A stretch of DNA of 13,407 bases. It comes from Acidimicrobiia bacterium (GTDB lineage: Bacteria > Actinomycetota > Acidimicrobiia > Acidimicrobiales > Acidimicrobilacustridaceae). The stretch spans positions 1 through 13,407 of the forward strand of contig VERC01000036.1 in NCBI GenBank assembly GCA_018882825.1. The letters are read 5' to 3'. The translations under genes were made by a program, and so were the position numbers. Shown here piece by piece: positions 2,316 through 10,631 of the stretch. The notes beneath the pieces are model-generated. The model had not been told where the DNA came from. It saw nothing but the letters and a program-made list of their open reading frames with translations, and searched no databases. Within the stretch, counting starts at the first letter, position 1, and every line of letters begins with the position of its first letter.

Positions 2316-4361
2316 TCACTTCGAACGCTTGACCGCCCGGAGCGTCTCGGACTTGGCGTACACGGGTACGGCCTCGGCGGCACCGGTGCCCACCGGCCAG
2401 GCCGGTGCCCGATAGATGGCCAGTCGCGCCGACTGGACGCAGTCGCCGGTGGACGCACAGGTGAGCGTGTTGGAGACACCCCGGTAGTCGGTCACCACCC
2501 GCATGGCCTCCACCAGTTGTCGACGATCGATGACGAGGGTTCCATCGCGCCCCACCGTGGCCACGCGCTGCACCGCGTCGAACACGAGATTGGCGGCATC
2601 GAACGCCGATGTGTTCCACACCGAAGACGGTGCCTGTCCGTAGATGGTGCGATAGGCGGACCGGTACTCGTCCCGATAGAAGGGGCGATCGACGAGCGCG
2701 GCGATGTCGGGGCCCGAGGCGAAGGCCCCGATCCGGGCCGCAGGACGCAGCACGGCCGCCGTGGTGCAGGCATCGCTGGTGACCGCCACCAGTCCGGCGG
2801 TGGCCGGGTTCGATCCGATGGCCCCGAGAAGGTCCTCGCACACCGGCGAGTTCACCGGCAGGTACACCGCCTGGAATCCACCGGCCGCGATGCGTCCCAC
2901 CACCGGTGCGGGATCCTCTCCGGAGCGAAGGGTGAACGTCTGCAACTCGGGCTGTCCGAACGAGATCATCCGCGTGGAGAACACGCTGGACAGTTCGTCG
3001 GCGTACACGGTCCCGTCGACCACCACCGCCAACCGGTCGAGTCCGAGCTCACCGCCCACGAAGTCGGCCACCACCGAGCCCTGCATGAGGTCGTTGGGGG
3101 CGGTGCGGAAGTAGGTGCGGGAGGGATCGGTCGAGGTGGTGAGGATCGGCGCCGTGTTCTGGGCCGAGACCATCAGCACACCGGCCTCGGCCACGACCGG
3201 TTCGGCCGCCTTGTACGCCGCGCCCGAACAGGTGGTGCCGATGATCGCCACCAACGACTTCTCGTTGAGCAACTGACCGGCACCCGAACGTCCACCCTCG
3301 GCCGAACACTGGTCGTCGACCGCCAGCAGGTCGATCTCGCGGCCGAGCAGACGGCCGGGCGCACCATCGAACGATCCGTCGAGGTAGTCGATGGCCAGAC
3401 GGATCCCGCGCAGCGCATCGGCACCCGTGGCGTCGGCGTCCTTGCCGATGCGGAGCAGCGCCCCGAGCGGCACGGGCTCGTCGGGCGCGATGCGCACACA
3501 GTCCGCCCCCGACCCGGTGCAGGTGTCCGGACCGGCAGCCAGCACTCCGGCGGGTCCGACCCACGGCAGGTACACCCCGGTGCGCACCTCGGCCGCCATG
3601 TCCCGAACCGGTGCCCGATCGACGATGAAGGGGCCGCGGAACGGCGCCGAGATCCCGACGATGAGCGCCAGGTCGAGGGCGACGACGACGACGATGCCGA
3701 CCGCCACGTACACCGTGTTCCCGCCGGTGCGCAGCGCCACGAACAAGGCGTTGACGATGAGGGCGAAACCGGCGATGACGCTCAACAGGAACAACTGGAT
3801 CGGCATCTCGCTGTCGGCGATGGAGATGAGTTCGCGCCGCACGGTGGTGAGGTCGGCCATGGACTCCTCCATGGCATTGGCGGTGGCCGAGGGGACATAG
3901 GGACGGCTGGCGATGGCGAAGGACACCGATTGCAGTTCCTGCAACGAGAGGAAGGCCGGCGAGACCCGCGGTGCCCGTGGGTCGTTCGAGGCGAAGGCGC
4001 TCCAGTCGTAGCGGGCCGAGTCGGAGAGATAGCTGCCGAGTCGCTGCTGCACGAGCGAGGTGTCGACCGAGGGCAGCCCCTCCGAGGCCCACGCCAGACG
4101 ACTGGAGGCCGCCACCTCGCGACCGACCAGGGTCTGGGCCTGCCGCAGGGTCGAGTACTCGGAGTTGATGAGGAAACCCGTGAGGATGGCGAACAGGCTC
4201 CCCAACGCCGTCATGTAGGCCGCCGCCGCCATGCCGGTGCGTTCCCGGTTGTCACCGATGCGCGAGTGCAGCAGGAGGTACGTACCGGCCGACACGGCCC
4301 CGACCACCGCCATCGCCAGGAGGAACAGCATCCAGTTGGGCAGTGAGGTCAACCACGTCAC
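2316..4361 (-). CDS. Membrane-anchored LivJ-like solute-binding protein fused to a DUF4239 (bestrophin-like) four-helix domain
   Basis: A 681-aa protein from a GTG at 4361, seven bases after the VOC stop. Part one (about 1-260) has four hydrophobic segments near 8-31, 44-65, 187-210 and 215-238, with a 120-residue loop between the second and third. It ends in PFRGPFIVDRAPV (240-252), which looks like the end of DUF4239 domains. Part two (about 298-655) is a type I periplasmic binding domain of the branched-chain amino acid family. DDQC at 349-352 and GTTCSG at 375-380 match the LivJ disulfide pair and ligand loop, followed by AGVLMVSAQNTAP (393-405) and YFRTAPND (417-424). All eight cysteines (281, 288, 352, 378, 508, 532, 635, 641) lie after residue 280, fitting an outside, oxidised domain. 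Short positive loops (about 32-43 and 211-214) suggest both ends face outside. There is no lipobox and no ABC permease or ATPase nearby. Ligand and function are unknown; sensing or gated transport are possibilities. The extended frame above 4361 is a shadow of the VOC gene. Confidence 0.8.
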   Translation of the reverse strand: MTWLTSLPNWMLFLLAMAVVGAVSAGTYLLLHSRIGDNRERTGMAAAAYMTALGSLFAILTGFLINSEYSTLRQAQTLVGREVAASSRLAWASEGLPSVDTSLVQQRLGSYLSDSARYDWSAFASNDPRAPRVSPAFLSLQELQSVSFAIASRPYVPSATANAMEESMADLTTVRRELISIADSEMPIQLFLLSVIAGFALIVNALFVALRTGGNTVYVAVGIVVVVALDLALIVGISAPFRGPFIVDRAPVRDMAAEVRTGVYLPWVGPAGVLAAGPDTCTGSGADCVRIAPDEPVPLGALLRIGKDADATGADALRGIRLAIDYLDGSFDGAPGRLLGREIDLLAVDDQCSAEGGRSGAGQLLNEKSLVAIIGTTCSGAAYKAAEPVVAEAGVLMVSAQNTAPILTTSTDPSRTYFRTAPNDLMQGSVVADFVGGELGLDRLAVVVDGTVYADELSSVFSTRMISFGQPELQTFTLRSGEDPAPVVGRIAAGGFQAVYLPVNSPVCEDLLGAIGSNPATAGLVAVTSDACTTAAVLRPAARIGAFASGPDIAALVDRPFYRDEYRSAYRTIYGQAPSSVWNTSAFDAANLVFDAVQRVATVGRDGTLVIDRRQLVEAMRVVTDYRGVSNTLTCASTGDCVQSARLAIYRAPAWPVGTGAAEAVPVYAKSETLRAVKRSK

Positions 4362-4368
4362 CGCTCTG

Positions 4369-4746
4369 TCATCCGTTCCGTGGCGCCGGCGCCACCAGTT
4401 CGACGGCGTTTCCGTCGGGATCGCGCAGTTGCAGCGAGGGCGTGCCCGACTCGTCGACGATCGACGGCACGTCGAGGCCGCGGGTGCGCAGTTCGGCGGC
4501 CCACGCCTCCAGCGTCGGGCCGTCGGGAACGGCGAACGCCACATGGTCGATCGGTGACCGATCGACGTCGGGGTCGCCGGGCGACACCACGATCACCATG
4601 CGCGCGGCGCGACTGCGCAGCGCCACCACGTCGCCGTGCTCCGACATGACCTCCATGCCCAGCACCGCGCAGTACCAGTCCACGCACGCCGGAACGTCGC
4701 GGACCCGCAACTGCAGGTGACTGAAGCCGGTGACCGGAGCGTCCAT
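4369..4746 (-). CDS. VOC (glyoxalase / bleomycin-resistance fold) family protein
   Basis: A 125-aa single-domain protein with the paired beta-alpha-beta-beta-beta repeats of the vicinal oxygen chelate superfamily: [11 protein letters not shown] (8-18), [11 protein letters not shown] (23-33), DHVAFAV (67-73) and [12 protein letters not shown] (107-118). His 10, His 68 and Glu 116 sit where metal ligands are usually found, so a divalent-metal enzyme (lyase, isomerase, dioxygenase or thiol transferase) is plausible, but the substrate cannot be predicted. ATG at 4746 lies 20 bases after the purH stop, and the next gene starts seven bases after its own stop, so it is co-transcribed with purH and the DUF4239 fusion gene. 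A link to purine synthesis is not implied by the family; it may be a passenger. Confidence 0.85.
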
Positions 4747-4766
4747 CGGGGAAGTCTCGCCCACGC

Positions 4767-6293
4767 TCAGTGCCGGAAGTGGCGTTCGCCGGTGAGGACC
4801 ATGGCGAGCCCGGCGGCGTCGGCCGCCGCGATCACCTCGTCGTCGCGGATCGACCCACCGGGTTGGATCACGGCGGTGGCCCCGGCCTCGATGGCGGCAT
4901 CGAGACCGTCGGCGAACGGGAAGAACGCGTCCGAGGCATAGGCCCCACCCCGGGCCCGACCATCGGCCTTCACCGCGGCGAGGTGACCGGCGTCGCGACG
5001 GTTCTGCTGACCGCACCCGATGCCCACGGCCTGACCGTCCTTCACCAGCACGATGGCGTTGGACGTCACCTTGGCCACGATCCGCCAGGCCAGCACGAGG
5101 TCGGCCCATTCGGCGTCGCTCGGCGCCCGTTCGGTGGCCACCGACCACGTGGAGCGGTCGATGCCGACCGGATCGGAGGTCTGTACGAGATACCCGCCGT
5201 CGATGGGCCGCAGGGAGAGCTCGGGCGTGCTCGGGGCCGAGGCCTCGAGGATGCGCAGGTTCTTCTTGGTCTGGAGCACCTCGAGCGCGTCGGCGTCGAA
5301 CGCCGGCGCCACCACCACCTCGGTGAACACCGGGGCGATGGACTCGGCCACGGCCTTCGTGACGGTGCGATTCAGGGCGATGATGCCACCGAAGGCGCTC
5401 ACCGGATCGCACTGGTGCGCCCGCGTGTAGGCGGCGAGGAGGTCGTCGGCCACGGCCACACCACAGGGGTTGGCGTGCTTGATGACCACCGCCGCGGGTC
5501 GGTCGCCGATCGCGTGCACCAGTTGCCACGCCGCCTCGGTGTCGTAGACGTTCAGATACGACATCTCCTTGCCGCCGAGTTGGCGGGCACCGTCCCACCA
5601 GCCGCGCTCCCCGACCGTGGCGTAACGGGCGCCGACCTGATGGGGGTTCTCGCCGTAGCGCAGCACCTGCTCGCGTCGCAGTTCGATCGTCAGCGTTTCG
5701 GGCAGTTCGTCCGGCGCCTCGGTGACGCGAGTGCCACCGGCGGGCATGCCGGCGTCGAACCAGGCGAGGATCTCGGCGTCGTACGCCGCCGTGTGGGCGA
5801 AGGCGTCGCGGGCCAACCGCCTGCGGGTGACAGGTGACAGCGAACCCTCGGCGCGCAGCTCGGCCACCACCTCGGCGTAGCGCGACGGATCGGTGACGAT
5901 GCCGACGTGGGCGTGGTTCTTGGCCGCCGCGCGCACCATCGCCGGTCCACCGATGTCGATCAACTCGATCGACGGATCGGCCGAGAACGGATAGAGGTTG
6001 GCCACCACGAGGTCAATGGCGTCGATGCCGTAGGCCTCCATGTCGGCGCGGTGTTCGGCGTCGGTCGGATCGGCGAGGATGCCGCCGTGCACCTTCGGAT
6101 GCAGGGTGACGACGCGGTGGCCGAGGATGGCCGGGAAACCGGTGAGGTCGGCGACGTCGGTGACGGGGATACCGGCCTCGGCGATGGCGCGGGCCGTGCC
6201 GCCGCTGGAGACCAGGTCCCAGCCCATCTCGTGCAGGGCGCGAGCGAGTTCCACGATCCCGGTCTTGTCGTACACGGACAGGAGTGCCCTCAC
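4767..6293 (-). CDS. purH: Bifunctional AICAR transformylase / IMP cyclohydrolase
   Basis: Carries out the last two steps of purine synthesis: formyl transfer from 10-formyl-THF to AICAR, then ring closure to IMP. The 508-aa product has both domains. The N-terminal cyclohydrolase shows SVYDKTG (6-12), SSGGTA (29-34), HPKVHGG (65-71), NLYPF (99-103) and [16 protein letters not shown] (112-127). The C-terminal transformylase shows VIKHANPCG (270-278) with the catalytic Lys 272-His 273 pair, SAFGGI (299-304), DAFFPFADG (455-463), QPGGSIRD (477-484) and TGERHFRH at the end. Length is normal (E. coli about 529). GTG 6293 is chosen because it overlaps the purN stop (GTGA) and follows a strong AGGGGGAG six bases upstream; the longer frame runs into purN. 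The coupling to purN should keep the two folate-dependent steps in proportion. Confidence 0.97.
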
Positions 6294-6853
6294 TGGACGC
6301 TCCCCCTTTCCATGATGTCGGCGATGGTGCGGACGTAGATCCGACGCTCCACTTCCTTGATGCGTTCGTGCAGCGACTCGACGGTGTCGTCGGGCGCCAC
6401 GATCACCGCCTCCTGGGCCAGGATGGGTCCGGCGTCGACCTCCTCGGTGGCGATGTGCACGGTGCAGCCCGTGACCTTGACGCCGTGGGCCAGCGCGTCG
6501 GCCACACCGTGCCATCCGGGGAACGACGGCAACAGCGCCGGATGAGTGTTGAGCACGCGCCCCGGATGGGCGTCGAACACCGCGCGGCCGAGGATGGTGC
6601 CGAAACCGGCCATGGCCACCAGGTCGATGTCCCACCCGGCCAGCACACCGACCAACTCGGCGGTGTAGCCGTCACGATCGAAGTCGGCACCGAAGCTGCG
6701 CCGCTCGAGCCGCTCGCAGGGGACCCCGCACCGGGCGGCGACCTCCTCGGCCCCGCAGGCCCGATCGACGACCACGAGGGTCACGGACACGCCGGCGGCG
6801 CAGATGGCGTCGAGGATCGTTCCACTCCCCGACGCGAGCACGGCCAGTCGCAT
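6290..6853 (-). CDS. purN: Phosphoribosylglycinamide formyltransferase (GART)
   Basis: Transfers the formyl group of 10-formyl-THF to GAR in the third step of purine synthesis, in the cytoplasm. The 187-aa protein shows the N-terminal phosphate loop ASGSGT (7-12), AGFGTIL (82-88), LNTHPALLPSFPG (101-113) and TEEVDAGPI (136-144). Asn 102, His 104 and Asp 140 correspond to the catalytic triad (Asn106, His108, Asp144 of E. coli). Loop 7-14 reads GSGTIL rather than the common GSGSNL, a mild variation. ATG 6853 is the family N-terminus. It begins 11 bases after the amidohydrolase stop and has no Shine-Dalgarno sequence, but a TAGGTT element overlaps that stop, so it may be both read through from upstream and started on its own. 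The purH start overlaps its stop by four bases. Confidence 0.96.
   Translation of the reverse strand: MRLAVLASGSGTILDAICAAGVSVTLVVVDRACGAEEVAARCGVPCERLERRSFGADFDRDGYTAELVGVLAGWDIDLVAMAGFGTILGRAVFDAHPGRVLNTHPALLPSFPGWHGVADALAHGVKVTGCTVHIATEEVDAGPILAQEAVIVAPDDTVESLHERIKEVERRIYVRTIADIMERGSVQ
6300..6307 (-). promoter_or_regulatory. Ribosome binding site of purH
   Basis: AGGGGGAG on the minus strand lies inside the end of purN, six bases before the GTG at 6293. It is the clearest Shine-Dalgarno sequence in the window and decides the purH start. It contrasts with the transcription-unit heads, which mostly lack one. Confidence 0.75.
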
Positions 6854-6861
6854 GACGGCCG

Positions 6862-6867
6862 AACCTA
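6862..6867 (-). promoter_or_regulatory. Possible internal -10 element of purN-purH
   Basis: TAGGTT on the minus strand includes the amidohydrolase TAG stop and ends eight bases before the purN ATG. It fits TANNNT and would give a leader of about 0-3 bases. No -35 is seen. The absence of a Shine-Dalgarno sequence before purN makes it more believable, but the hexamer could be chance. Confidence 0.25.
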
Positions 6868-8559
6868 GCAGGGGGCCGTCAGCGACCTTCCGGGCATGGC
6901 GCCGGTGTGCTCACCGTCCTCCATGAACACCTCACCGTTGACCAGCGTCCACGCGTAGCCCTCGGCCCGTTGCACGAAGCGACCGGCGCCGGCCGGGAAG
7001 TCGTGGGTGAAGGTGGGCAGGGGCAGGAACAGCCCGTCGAGGTCGAGCACGTTCACATCGGCCCGAGCGCCGGGGCGCAGCACACCGCGGTCGGCCAGTC
7101 CGAACAGGGCCGCGGCGCGACCGGTGAGTTGGTGCACGCCCTCGCCCACCGACATGAGTCCGCGTTCACGCACCCAGTAGGAGAGGAAGAACGTGGGTTG
7201 ACTGGCGTCGAGGATCTGTCCGACATGCGCGCCCGAATCGGCCAGGCCCAGCATCATGCGCGGATCGGTGAGCATCTCGGCGATGGCCGGGAAGTCCTGG
7301 TTGAGGATCGGCCAGTTGAGGATCACCGCGCCGTCGGTGGCGTCGACCAGATCGAGATAGGCCTCGACCGCGCTCGTACCCGCCCGCTCGGCATGGGCGG
7401 CCAGGCTGTCGGTGGGTCGACAGTCGTACCGCGCGCCGCGCTCGGGAGTGAGCACGTAGAACTCGCGACACGACTCGAGTCCGCGTGGGCCGTCACCGGC
7501 GGCGATGAGCCGGGACCGCACTTCCGGATCGCGCAACACCGCCACGCGTTCGTCGAGCGACAGGCCGTCGAGCACCTCCCAGCCCGGTCGATGACCGAAC
7601 GGTGTGTGATGGCCGAGGGAGAAGATCACGCCGATGCTGCGCGAAGTCGTCTGCGGGCGCAGGTCGGCGCCGTCGGCGTTGGCCTGCGCCACGAAGTCGA
7701 GAACCTCGCGCCACTGGTTCGGCGCACTCAGCACGTTGGTGAGGTTGAAGGTGAACGGTCGGCCGGCGGCACGACTCATGGCCGCCATGATCGCCACCTC
7801 GCTCTCGGCCCGGTCGGTGCCCGGTCCCTCACCGTCGAAGCGCGGCGCGCACCCGAGCACACCGCGACCGTGGGTGCGCAGCACCGAGGCCAGCGTCACC
7901 AGCTCGCGTTCGACCGCCCAGGTTCCGGGCACGTTGCGGCCATCGGCGGCCACGTGCCGACCGGTGCGCGAGGTGGAGAACCCCACCGCACCGGCGCGCA
8001 TCGCCTCGTCGACGAGGTCGACCATCAGCGCCAGTTCCTCGTCGGTGGGAACGGCGTCGGCATCGAGTGACCGATCGCCCATGGCGTAGTAGCGAACCGC
8101 GCCGTGCCCCACGAAGCCGCCGTGGTTCAGTCCGGTGGGTGTGGCATCGAGCCAGCGCAGGTAGTCGCCGTGCGTCGTCCACGTCCACGGCAGTCCCTCG
8201 AGGATCGACCGGGCGGGGATGTCCTCCACCGATTCCATGGCCGAGGCCAGGAAGCCGGCGTCGCCCGGACGCACCGGGGCGAAGGTCATCCCGCAGTTGC
8301 CCAGCACCACCGAGGTGACACCGTGCCAACACGTCGACGTGCCCAACGGGTCCCACCCGAACTGCGCGTCGAGATGGGTGTGCACGTCGATGAACCCGGG
8401 GGTGACGAGCCGTCCCTCGGCCTCGAGCGTGCGCGCTCCAGTGCCGACGTCGTCACCGATGGCCACGATGGTGTCGCCGTCGATGGCCACCTCGGCCGGG
8501 CGCGGTTCGGCACCGGTCCCGTCGACGACGAGCCCTCCGCGGATGACCAGATCGTGCAT
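6865..8559 (-). CDS. Amidohydrolase family protein, D-aminoacylase (N-acyl-D-amino-acid deacylase)-like
   Basis: A 564-aa TIM-barrel metal hydrolase of the amidohydrolase superfamily. The closest pattern is the D-aminoacylase / N-acyl-D-glutamate deacylase group, which removes acyl groups from D-amino acids. Seen: the N-terminal beta-sandwich strand (VIRGGLVVDGTG), GFIDVHTHLD (56-64) with metal-binding His 60 and His 62, GNCG (87-90) with Cys 89 where this group has its metal-ligand cysteine, HGRG (230-233), LADSGAHVGQ (439-448) with catalytic Asp 441, and the C-terminal return to the sandwich (GVLRPGARADVNVLD, 492-506). Many environmental actinobacterial homologues are annotated this way without a proven substrate, so substrate is open. 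ATG 8559 lies 28 bases after the sucD stop and six bases after a TACTGT element. It heads the purN-purH run, 11 bases from purN. Confidence 0.85.
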   Translation of the reverse strand: MHDLVIRGGLVVDGTGAEPRPAEVAIDGDTIVAIGDDVGTGARTLEAEGRLVTPGFIDVHTHLDAQFGWDPLGTSTCWHGVTSVVLGNCGMTFAPVRPGDAGFLASAMESVEDIPARSILEGLPWTWTTHGDYLRWLDATPTGLNHGGFVGHGAVRYYAMGDRSLDADAVPTDEELALMVDLVDEAMRAGAVGFSTSRTGRHVAADGRNVPGTWAVERELVTLASVLRTHGRGVLGCAPRFDGEGPGTDRAESEVAIMAAMSRAAGRPFTFNLTNVLSAPNQWREVLDFVAQANADGADLRPQTTSRSIGVIFSLGHHTPFGHRPGWEVLDGLSLDERVAVLRDPEVRSRLIAAGDGPRGLESCREFYVLTPERGARYDCRPTDSLAAHAERAGTSAVEAYLDLVDATDGAVILNWPILNQDFPAIAEMLTDPRMMLGLADSGAHVGQILDASQPTFFLSYWVRERGLMSVGEGVHQLTGRAAALFGLADRGVLRPGARADVNVLDLDGLFLPLPTFTHDFPAGAGRFVQRAEGYAWTLVNGEVFMEDGEHTGAMPGRSLTAPC

Positions 8560-8565
8560 GCCCCG

Positions 8566-8571
8566 ACAGTA
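8566..8571 (-). promoter_or_regulatory. Putative -10 element of the amidohydrolase-purNH operon (leaderless)
   Basis: TACTGT on the minus strand fits TANNNT, and six bases separate it from the ATG at 8559, which puts the predicted transcription start on the A of the start codon. No -35 match is visible. It lies in the 28-base gap after sucD, so the operon below may be independent of sucCD. Confidence 0.5.
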
Positions 8572-8587
8572 CCGACGGGGCGGTGGC

Positions 8588-9481
8588 TCAGGCCCAGCCG
8601 TGCTCGCGGACGACCTGCACCATCAGTTCGCCGGCCTCGGTGGGGTTCTTGCCCACGCGCACACCAGCGGCCTCGAGGGCCTCCATCTTGGCCGCGGCGG
8701 TGCCCTTGCCACCGGAGACGATGGCTCCGGCGTGGCCCATCTTCTTCCCCGGAGGCGCGGTCACACCGGCCACGTAGGAGACGACCGGCTTGGTCATCTT
8801 CGTGGCGATGAACTCGGCGGCCTCCTCCTCGGCCGACCCACCGATCTCACCGATCATCATCACGGCCTTGGTGTCGGGGTCGTCCTCGAAGGCGGCGAGG
8901 CAGTCGATGAACGAGGTACCGGGCACGGGATCGCCGCCGATGCCCACACAGGTGGTCACACCGATGTCCTGCAACTTCAGTTCGTAGAGCGCCTGGTAGG
9001 TGAGGGTGCCCGAACGGCTGACGATGCCCACCGGCCCACCGGGCTTGGCGATCTCGCCGGCGGTGATGCCGATGTTGCACTTCCCGGGACTGATGATGCC
9101 GGGGCAGTTCGGGCCGAGCAGGCGCACGTTCGGGAAGTCACGCTTCAACTTGTTGAAGAACCACGCCTCGTCGTGGGCCGGCACACCCTCGGTGATGCAC
9201 ACGATGAACTCGACGCCGCCTTCGGCTGCCTCCATCACCGCGGCGCGCACGCCGGGCGCCGGGATGAAGATGCACGAGGCGTTGGCACCGGTGGCGGCGA
9301 CCGCGTCGCCCACCGAGGCGAAGATCGGGATGCCGTCCACGTCGGTCCCGGCCTTCTTGGGGTTGGTGCCGCCGACCACGTTGGTGCCGTAGTCACGGTT
9401 GCGTAGGCCGTAGAAGCGTCCCTGGGAACCGGTGAGGCCCTGGTAGACGACCTTGGTGTTCTCGTCGACGAAGATGCTCAC
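8588..9481 (-). CDS. sucD: Succinyl-CoA synthetase (succinate-CoA ligase), alpha subunit
   Basis: With SucC, interconverts succinyl-CoA and succinate while making ATP or GTP, a TCA-cycle step. The 297-aa product has the CoA-binding Rossmann domain (YQGLTGSQGRFY, 13-24), GPNCPGIISPGKCNIG (123-138), SRSGTLTYQ (155-163), CVGIGGDPVPG (178-188) and the phosphohistidine loop KMGHAGAIVSGGKG (247-260), with the phosphorylated His at 250. Length and motifs are standard. The start is a GTG at 9481, seven bases after the sucC TGA, preceded by a weak GGA; the pair is translationally linked. The end is followed by the amidohydrolase promoter. Confidence 0.97.
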   Translation of the reverse strand: MSIFVDENTKVVYQGLTGSQGRFYGLRNRDYGTNVVGGTNPKKAGTDVDGIPIFASVGDAVAATGANASCIFIPAPGVRAAVMEAAEGGVEFIVCITEGVPAHDEAWFFNKLKRDFPNVRLLGPNCPGIISPGKCNIGITAGEIAKPGGPVGIVSRSGTLTYQALYELKLQDIGVTTCVGIGGDPVPGTSFIDCLAAFEDDPDTKAVMMIGEIGGSAEEEAAEFIATKMTKPVVSYVAGVTAPPGKKMGHAGAIVSGGKGTAAAKMEALEAAGVRVGKNPTEAGELMVQVVREHGWA

Positions 9482-9488
9482 GTCGTCC

Positions 9489-10631
9489 TCAGTTCTTCTT
9501 GGCGAGTTCGACGGCGGTCGCCGCGGCCTCGAGCATGGTGGGCTTGCTCTGGAGCTTGTCGGAGAGGTGCGGGGCCAACAGCGCCCGTCCCTCCTCGGCG
9601 TTGGTGCCGTCGAGGCGGATCACGATCGGCGCCGAGATGTCGACCATCTCCAGGGCGCCGATGATGCCCTTGGCCACCTCCTCGCCCCGCGTGATGCCAC
9701 CGAAGATGTTGATGAAGATCGACTTCACGTTGGGGTCGTCGTTGATGACCTGCAGCGCGCCGGCCATCACCTCGGCGTTGGCCCCGCCACCGATGTCGAG
9801 GAAGTTGGCGGGCTTGCCACCGGCCTGGTTGACGACGTCGAGTGTGCTCATGGCCAGACCGGCACCGTTGGCGATGACGCCCACCGTTCCGTCGAGGCCG
9901 ACGTACTGGAGTCCCTTGGCGTGGGCCGCCTCCTCGCGCTCGTCGCGCACCTGCGTGCTCTCGTACTCGGCCCACTCGTGACGGAAGTCGGCGTTGTTGT
10001 CGAGCGTGACCTTGGCGTCGAGCGCGTGCACGTTGCCGTCGGTCTTCACGATCAGCGGGTTGATCTCGGCCAGATCGGCGTCACCGTCGGTGTAGGCGGT
10101 GTAGAGCTTGCGCAGCAGTTCGACGGCGCCGTCGGTGACGGCCGGGTTCAACCTGGCCGCCGTCACCCACTCGCGACACTGGGCCTCGGAGAGTCCGTCG
10201 ACCGGATCGATCCAGATCTTGGCGATGGCATCGGGGTTGTCGACGGCCACCTGCTCGATCTCGACCCCGCCCTCGGCCGACAGCATGCCGAGGTGCTTCT
10301 TGGCCGATCGATCGAGGGTGAACGAGGCGTAGTACTCCTCGGCGATGTCCGAGGCGTGCTCGATCCACAGGATCCGGGTGATGTGTCCCTTGATGTCGAG
10401 CCCGAGGATGTTGCCGGCGTGCTCCCGCACCTCGTCGGCGTTGGTGGCGAGCTTGACGCCTCCCGCCTTGCCGCGACCTCCGGCGTGCACCTGCGCCTTG
10501 ACCACCACCGGGTAGCCCACGGCGTCGGCAGCGGCAACGGCCTCGTCGACGGAGCGGACGGCCCGGCCGTCGGAGACGGGGATGCCGAAGGTGGCGAAGA
10601 ATTGTTTGCCCTGATATTCGAGTAGATCCAC
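9489..10631 (-). CDS. sucC: Succinyl-CoA synthetase (succinate-CoA ligase), beta subunit
   Basis: Nucleotide-binding and succinate-binding partner of SucD. The 380-aa product begins DLLEYQGKQ and has the ATP-grasp fold: VVVKAQVHAGGRGKAGGVK (42-60) with the nucleotide-binding Lys 45, AEINPL (188-193) with metal-binding residues, NGAGLAMSTLD (255-265) and the C-terminal flavodoxin-like ligase domain with LDIGGGA (278-284) and FGGITRG (310-316). E. coli SucC is 388 aa, so length fits. GTG 10631 is chosen because the conserved N-terminus starts there; upstream frame residues have no family support. A TACGTT element lies eight bases before it and no Shine-Dalgarno sequence is seen. It heads the sucCD pair and is divergent from the Rieske-like gene. 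Confidence 0.97.
   Translation of the reverse strand: MDLLEYQGKQFFATFGIPVSDGRAVRSVDEAVAAADAVGYPVVVKAQVHAGGRGKAGGVKLATNADEVREHAGNILGLDIKGHITRILWIEHASDIAEEYYASFTLDRSAKKHLGMLSAEGGVEIEQVAVDNPDAIAKIWIDPVDGLSEAQCREWVTAARLNPAVTDGAVELLRKLYTAYTDGDADLAEINPLIVKTDGNVHALDAKVTLDNNADFRHEWAEYESTQVRDEREEAAHAKGLQYVGLDGTVGVIANGAGLAMSTLDVVNQAGGKPANFLDIGGGANAEVMAGALQVINDDPNVKSIFINIFGGITRGEEVAKGIIGALEMVDISAPIVIRLDGTNAEEGRALLAPHLSDKLQSKPTMLEAAATAVELAKKN

Follow-up and report, generated by a model that had tools for sequence, protein, structure and literature searches.

A DUF4239 domain with a bestrophin fold is fused to a LivJ-like binding domain in an Acidimicrobiia bacterium, forming a candidate binding-protein-coupled membrane pore

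We analyzed a 13,407-nucleotide stretch of DNA from an Acidimicrobiia bacterium (contig VERC01000036.1; hereafter, the window), in which a minus-strand gene at positions 2316–4361, starting with GTG and free of internal stop codons, encodes a 681-amino-acid protein. Its open reading frame (ORF), Pfam matches and homologues indicate that a DUF4239/bestrophin-like domain comes first and a type I binding domain, of the kind found in substrate-binding proteins (SBPs), second. The identity and fold of the two domains, and the conserved coupling of the two parts, are well supported. Our favored interpretation, for which we judge confidence and doubt to be evenly matched, is that the protein is a binding-protein-coupled membrane pore: a bestrophin-fold domain, inverted in the membrane, that would be under the control of an outer amino-acid-binding domain.

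The N-terminal part matched PF14023 (Bestrophin-like, formerly DUF4239) at residues 18–251 (positions 3609–4310; all features of the gene are on the minus strand), with an E value of 3.4e-24 and a score of 86.1 bits against a gathering cut-off of 32. The C-terminal part matched PF13458 at residues 308–632 (E = 4.2e-23; 83 bits against a cut-off of 31.7), and structural matches place a LivJ-like type I binding domain at approximately residues 295–668 (2358–3479). A preliminary description of this DNA, made from the letters alone, had proposed profile searches for these two families and had claimed four hydrophobic helices with a DUF4239-like end, followed by a full type I binding domain. The profile match and the LivJ-like fold bear out the binding domain, and four hydrophobic segments and helices are present in the N-terminal part; the DUF4239 likeness, however, is not confined to an end of that part but covers all of it.

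A survey of homologues, also proposed in the preliminary description, found both PF14023 and PF13458 in 54 of 59 protein matches from several data sources; one of the 54 (P0005) is a fragment of the window protein itself, and the others are 42–88% identical. Among matches P0002–P0057 (n = 56), 48 are at least 660 amino acids long, and one protein match is labeled Dehalococcoidia by its source. In this search, as in the clade and second-fusion searches described below, only the approximately 8,000 candidates sharing most words were scored. Gene calls were made by a simple method based on G+C content by codon position. Sixteen public-genome contigs carry relatives, mostly in actinobacterial metagenome-assembled genomes, with one from Miltoncostaeales; contig L016 matches part of the binding domain only. 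Given the many independent fusions, we rejected a frame or assembly artefact joining two genes, which the preliminary description had named as fatal to its claim, and we regard its probability as negligible. The two parts do exist as separate adjacent genes in relatives, and in one genome of the window's genus (G102; L010/L047) the fusion gene is frameshifted near residue 215, reflecting either decay or an assembly error; yet the independent one-frame fusions, including that of another genome of the same genus (G588), rule an artefact out. Three contigs (L002, L004 and L007) share both the fusion and the gene order of the window, and their Bifidobacterium breve labels look wrong. Contig L009 carries two complete fusion genes in tandem (5856–7898 and 7953–10028), separated by 55 bases; rings of mixed subunits could result.

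A structure model of residues 1–262 has the bestrophin fold across nearly the whole N-domain, matching the protomer fold of the channels KpBest and BEST1/BEST2. The structural matches of the N-domain align with bestrophins, and pores of ionotropic glutamate receptors were not among the matches listed. Bestrophins emerged among its relatives by structure only: when the N-domain was run as a profile against PDB sequences, no match was convincing, the best being to a Homer protein with an E value of 0.023, and, unlike bestrophins, the window protein was matched by neither bestrophin Pfam model (PF01062 or PF25539) at E values up to 1. Comparison with bestrophins by hhalign, in which the "freeonly" alignment comprised 33 proteins (four belong to the split clade), detected no more than a remote similarity of profiles (P = 8.5e-5, probability 60%). 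A PF01062 search of 119 genomes gave zero matches and was likewise empty for the controls, and hence is uninformative; E. coli YneE belongs to PF25539. When the full model was compared with a viral library, there were four matches at E values up to 0.001, two of them named binding proteins or receptors and two without a name.

Transmembrane helix 2 (TM2) with its extension (residues 43–95; 4077–4235) contains the longest run of invariant columns, AAAYMTALGSLFAI, in an alignment of 36 fusions (35 of the 59 matches and the window protein), and by analogy with bestrophins would line the pore. Residues S55, I59 and F63 (4173–4199), each invariant in 36/36 rows, would lie opposite V62, I66 and F70 of E. 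coli YneE in the register suggested by hhalign, its one source. Those YneE residues presumably correspond to the KpBest neck, given as I62, I66 and F70 in the excerpt of PMC8496536. In this register the second and third presumed neck positions would be I and F, the first being serine, and in the profile alignment the PF-G motif that follows TM4 comes close to the PFG motif of bestrophins.

The distribution of charge suggests that this domain is inserted the opposite way to bestrophins. TM1 (residues 9–35; 4257–4337) would run from outside to inside, the helical region between TM2 and TM3 (residues 96–187; 3801–4076) would lie outside, and TM3 and TM4 (residues 188–237; 3651–3800) are separated by a short loop. 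Across the 36 fusions, the TM2–TM3 region is net negative in 36/36 and the TM3–TM4 loop net positive in 36/36; 29 have a net positive TM1–TM2 loop and two a negative one, and 34 a net negative stretch after TM4. Among 74 sequences of the DUF4239 clade (73 of 95 matches and the window domain), the TM3–TM4 loop is positive in all 74 and the TM2–TM3 region negative in 71. By contrast, nine bacterial bestrophins are opposite at two places, with a negative TM3–TM4 loop in 8/9 and positive charge in the first 25 residues after TM2 in 9/9. The signal is weaker in free DUF4239 proteins of other actinobacteria (n = 29), of which 28 have a negative TM2–TM3 region, 17 a positive TM3–TM4 loop and seven a negative one.

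Cysteines point in the same direction. Among 93 unfused DUF4239 proteins, 15 have cysteines both in the TM2–TM3 region and in the C-terminal tail, two have only the one, two only the other, and 74 neither, a count uncorrected for relatedness and including a few chance cysteines; this co-occurrence fits a disulfide between two outer parts. Based on the charge pattern and the cysteines, as well as lipobox-like motifs in split partner proteins (see below), SBP-linked DUF4239 forms appear to be inserted opposite to bestrophins. The bestrophin vestibule is cytosolic, according to the excerpt of PMC8496536, whereas the extramembrane part of the fusion would be extracellular and carry the SBP. The normal bestrophin orientation, with the SBP inside, was rejected on the charge pattern and cysteines. 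The claim in the preliminary description that both ends face outside agrees with these two lines of evidence, in a topology that is predicted and to which two charge features, taken up below, are indifferent.

All eight cysteines of the window protein (281, 288, 352, 378, 508, 532, 635 and 641) lie in the second part, as had been claimed, and so many cysteines in the C-terminal part are as expected of an exported domain. Seven of the eight cysteine columns are invariant in the 36 aligned fusions; the first is Cys in 28/36, but every row carries two or more cysteines in the interval 262–300. The linker (residues 262–290; 3492–3578) holds the first cysteine pair. The C-terminal part has eight cysteines in 34/36 rows and ten in two, and the N-terminal part has a single cysteine in 4/36. 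Aligned to E. coli LivJ and LivK, Cys352 and Cys378 (3228–3308) fall on the cysteine pair of those proteins, as the preliminary description had said; C352, C378, S379, T403 and Y453 are kept in 36/36 rows, and D or E at position 530 in 35/36. The positions of S379, T403, Y453 and D530 are ones that we take to contact the amino acid in LivJ. Judged by this alignment, the presumed ligand-contact residues of the binding domain are conserved.

We also found the two halves as separate genes. In 296 genomes of the phylum, they occurred as adjacent separate matches in four (G014, G016, G089 and G229). The genes of the split loci overlap, a PstS-like lipoprotein (PF12849) coming first, then DUF4239 and last the LivJ-like SBP; the contig of G229 ends within the PstS-like gene. 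The DUF4239 gene of these relatives ends near the linker region and the SBP gene starts with its own N-terminal signal or hydrophobic segment; in the fusions, there is no such hydrophobic segment between the DUF4239 tail and the SBP. A lipobox-like motif is present in six of the seven split SBPs that were examined (in L015 as judged by eye), and the seventh has an N-terminal hydrophobic segment in its place. The best PstS-like matches in the 296 genomes were in G014, G016 and G089, with a contig-end piece in G229; the model was built from five clade loci, making the top ranks of G014 and G016 circular. No PstS-like gene was detected at 1e-12 in the fusion genomes G000 and G102.

Two further searches across the class, of 199 and 198 genomes, yielded 25 strong DUF4239-clade loci (E up to 8.4e-71), 24 of which have a type I SBP: fused in two (one frameshifted) and immediately downstream in 22 (one broken over two frames). 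A PstS-like gene lies upstream in 19. This set includes L192, with an SBP judged by eye, and the frameshifted L193, and leaves out L173 (55 amino acids, at a contig end) and L209 (the second piece of the L193 gene). Some genomes appear under two identifiers (L010/L047, L048/L164, L050/L157, L061/L169, L062/L187 and L102/L183), and L013 and L168 have identical DUF4239 proteins. The 28 weaker DUF4239 loci from these searches comprise one fusion (L204), 24 loci without an SBP, and L183–L185, at which a type I SBP lies on the opposite strand approximately 650–735 bases away. Neighbor scans covered type I, PstS-like, DctP-like and SBP_bac_3 genes only, in flanks of approximately 5 kb or 1.5 kb, less at contig ends. 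At L101 and L103, DUF4239 overlaps a type I SBP gene, and at one of them also a DctP-family SBP gene. In L103 (4282–7647), genes for a type I SBP, DUF4239 and a DctP-family (tripartite ATP-independent periplasmic, TRAP) SBP overlap consecutively, with no TRAP membrane gene seen by eye in the printed stretch. At L158, a DctP-like gene lies on the opposite strand, approximately 900 bases from a DUF4239 trio.

A quick tree of the SBPs (55 rows) placed the 36 fusions together with the seven split SBPs in a single group, separate from 12 ATP-binding cassette (ABC)-type SBPs, with support of 100. A quick DUF4239 tree, weakly branched, has unfused pairs close to its base and fused forms at more than one point. 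Both trees are quick searches on subsets with long branches, and leave the number of fusion events unsettled.

A second fusion family pairs DUF4239 with a different binding fold. At L204, from the same order as the window genome, DUF4239 is followed by SBP_bac_3 (PF00497, E 5.9e-31), which has a type II fold; this protein also has a weak, sub-cut-off match (3.5e-5) to PF10613, a ligand-binding model of ionotropic glutamate receptors. Both domains were present in 15 of 19 matches. All 16 fusions of this family (15 matches and the query) have the same charge pattern, and their cysteines 114 (between TM2 and TM3) and 270 (in the C-terminal tail) are invariant. The free DUF4239 protein of the window genome (L017; G000:C280) is 54% identical to the N-terminal part of the second fusion, and is unfused.

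The absence of a nearby ABC transporter, noted in the preliminary description, held for the window: a comparison of its ORFs of at least 80 amino acids with five Liv permease/ATPase proteins found no relative. The window genome, which is 80% complete, has nine PF02653 matches (Liv and sugar permeases) on other contigs, and ten PF13458 matches, one of which is the window gene. A LivH relative was found at none of 16 fusion/split loci, and the 18 loci that have one were all retrieved around SBP-only matches. ATPase relatives (24–32% identity) lie in the flanks of six of the 16 loci, none with a LivH relative. SBPs with approximately 30–40% identity to the C-terminal part have LivH relatives as neighbors, and most of them head a Liv-type operon. 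A part in an ABC importer was rejected on the lack of LivH relatives at the 16 loci, with genes elsewhere in the genome a possible source.

We propose that the N-terminal part would form a ring of subunits with TM2 around a central pore, as in bestrophins, and with reversed orientation, so that the helical vestibule domain and the C-terminus would lie outside. The LivJ-like domain would sit at the mouth of the outer vestibule and bind a small molecule there, most probably an alpha-amino acid; by closing, the domain would open or close the pore. The bestrophin fold and the conserved TM2 argue for a pore, and the location of the binding domain at the outer vestibule argues for ligand control. 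The output would most likely be transmembrane flux and not a cytosolic signal, because the cytoplasmic side would have only two loops, of approximately 17 and 9 residues; cytosolic signaling is unlikely. We hypothesize a pentamer, conductance, an amino-acid ligand and gating. The suggestion in the preliminary description of a sensor, gated channel or carrier rather than an importer part is supported in part, and its functional side has the same hypothetical standing. With somewhat more doubt than confidence, we further suggest that prokaryotes have a class of ligand-gated channels whose scaffold is an inverted bestrophin domain, paired with unrelated extracellular binding folds, as seen in the fusions (LivJ-like, SBP_bac_3) and gene clusters (PstS-like, DctP-like).

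Several observations weigh against a pore of this kind. We found no report of channel activity for PF14023 in the literature searched, a fold by itself does not prove conduction, and the hhalign probability for bestrophin similarity is modest. Two charge features do not separate the orientations: the outer TM1–TM2 loop of bestrophins is positive in 5/9 and their cytosolic post-TM4 stretch negative in 8/9. In the 29 free actinobacterial DUF4239 proteins the TM1–TM2 loop is ambiguous (14 positive, 11 negative). One clade locus (L171; G449:C19) has DUF4239 without an adjoining SBP, the next gene resembling a ZIP-type metal transporter by eye, and at another (L182; G449:C24) the downstream SBP is the one broken over two frames. 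Finally, the stretch read at 38 other DUF4239 loci contains no gene for any of the four kinds of SBP (type I, PstS-like, DctP-like and SBP_bac_3), indicating that SBP coupling is a trait of subclades and not of the family.

The solute captured by the SBP might instead be cargo, taken up or released through a bestrophin-like pore, rather than a gating signal. The variety of SBPs that accompany DUF4239 (LivJ-like, PstS-like, DctP-like and SBP_bac_3) would fit different cargoes, and SBP relatives of the C-terminal part lie at loci with LivH relatives, as in Liv-type ABC operons. We nevertheless consider this unlikely, since a tethered high-affinity binder would bring little gain to a passive pore and no energy-coupling part was recognized beside it. 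A sensor without flux, in which the helix bundle passes ligand binding on to another membrane protein, is distinctly improbable: the fusion has no cytosolic output domain, and the recurring neighbor families around fusion loci look like housekeeping genes by eye, although a partner could have been overlooked.

There is also a slim chance that DUF4239 merely anchors an ABC substrate-binding domain at the membrane, in the service of a LivHMGF importer encoded elsewhere. The PF02653 matches on other contigs of the window genome would allow this, and the lipobox-like motif in 6/7 split SBPs is a usual anchor. However, these split SBPs remain in an operon with DUF4239 despite having an anchor of their own, and an anchor would need neither four helices in a bestrophin fold nor a TM2 that hardly varies. 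The confinement of LivH relatives to loci retrieved around SBP-only matches (18, as against 0/16 fusion/split loci), and the separate grouping of fusion and split SBPs in the quick tree, also argue against an anchor.

Compared with LivJ and LivK, the C-terminal part of the fusion has the fold, the cysteine pair and the residues of the presumed amino-acid site, but it is neither free nor lipid-anchored, has no signal peptide of its own and has no adjoining LivH relative. Like ionotropic glutamate receptors, of which bacterial GluR0 is an example for comparison, these fusions would place type I or II binding-protein folds outside a membrane pore; unlike them, the scaffold is a bestrophin fold and the binding domain is C-terminal. 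The nearest precedent is bestrhodopsin, for which the primary paper is reportedly that of Rozenberg et al. 2022. There, too, a sensor module is joined to a bestrophin channel domain, although that sensor is a light-sensing rhodopsin, of algal origin and located in the membrane, whereas the bacterial window fusion has an external solute-binding domain. The excerpt of PMC12291454 describes bestrhodopsin as a pentameric rhodopsin–bestrophin fusion.

Directly upstream of the fusion gene is a glyoxalase-family gene (4369–4770). By inspection, the window presumably also contains purine-synthesis genes and amidohydrolase-like, sucC/sucD-like, dus-like, iron-permease-like and helicase-like genes. A 609-amino-acid plus-strand frame (2517–4346) is open antisense to the fusion gene, and is probably a by-product of high G+C content.

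In the library searched, which omits most subscription papers, there was practically no literature on DUF4239, and searches combining bestrophin with periplasmic-, substrate- or solute-binding, Venus flytrap or ligand-gated fusion did not find this architecture. Judging by titles, "PF14023" in print refers to malaria gene numbers, and the bestrophin content in the excerpt of PMC13183375 is unrelated to a DUF4239–SBP fusion. The fusion thus apparently represents known folds in a new combination, with an apparently reversed topology. If our interpretation is correct, the DUF4239 family would gain a function, and bestrophin-fold pores would be shown to be capable of the reverse orientation, carrying a chemical sensor on the outer side. 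The single-chain proteins would then allow ligand gating of a bestrophin pore to be tested with purified protein, and the pairing with different binding proteins would make the ligand of each member predictable and testable. A ligand-gated class on the bestrophin scaffold would be a bacterial parallel to ionotropic receptors, built on another pore.
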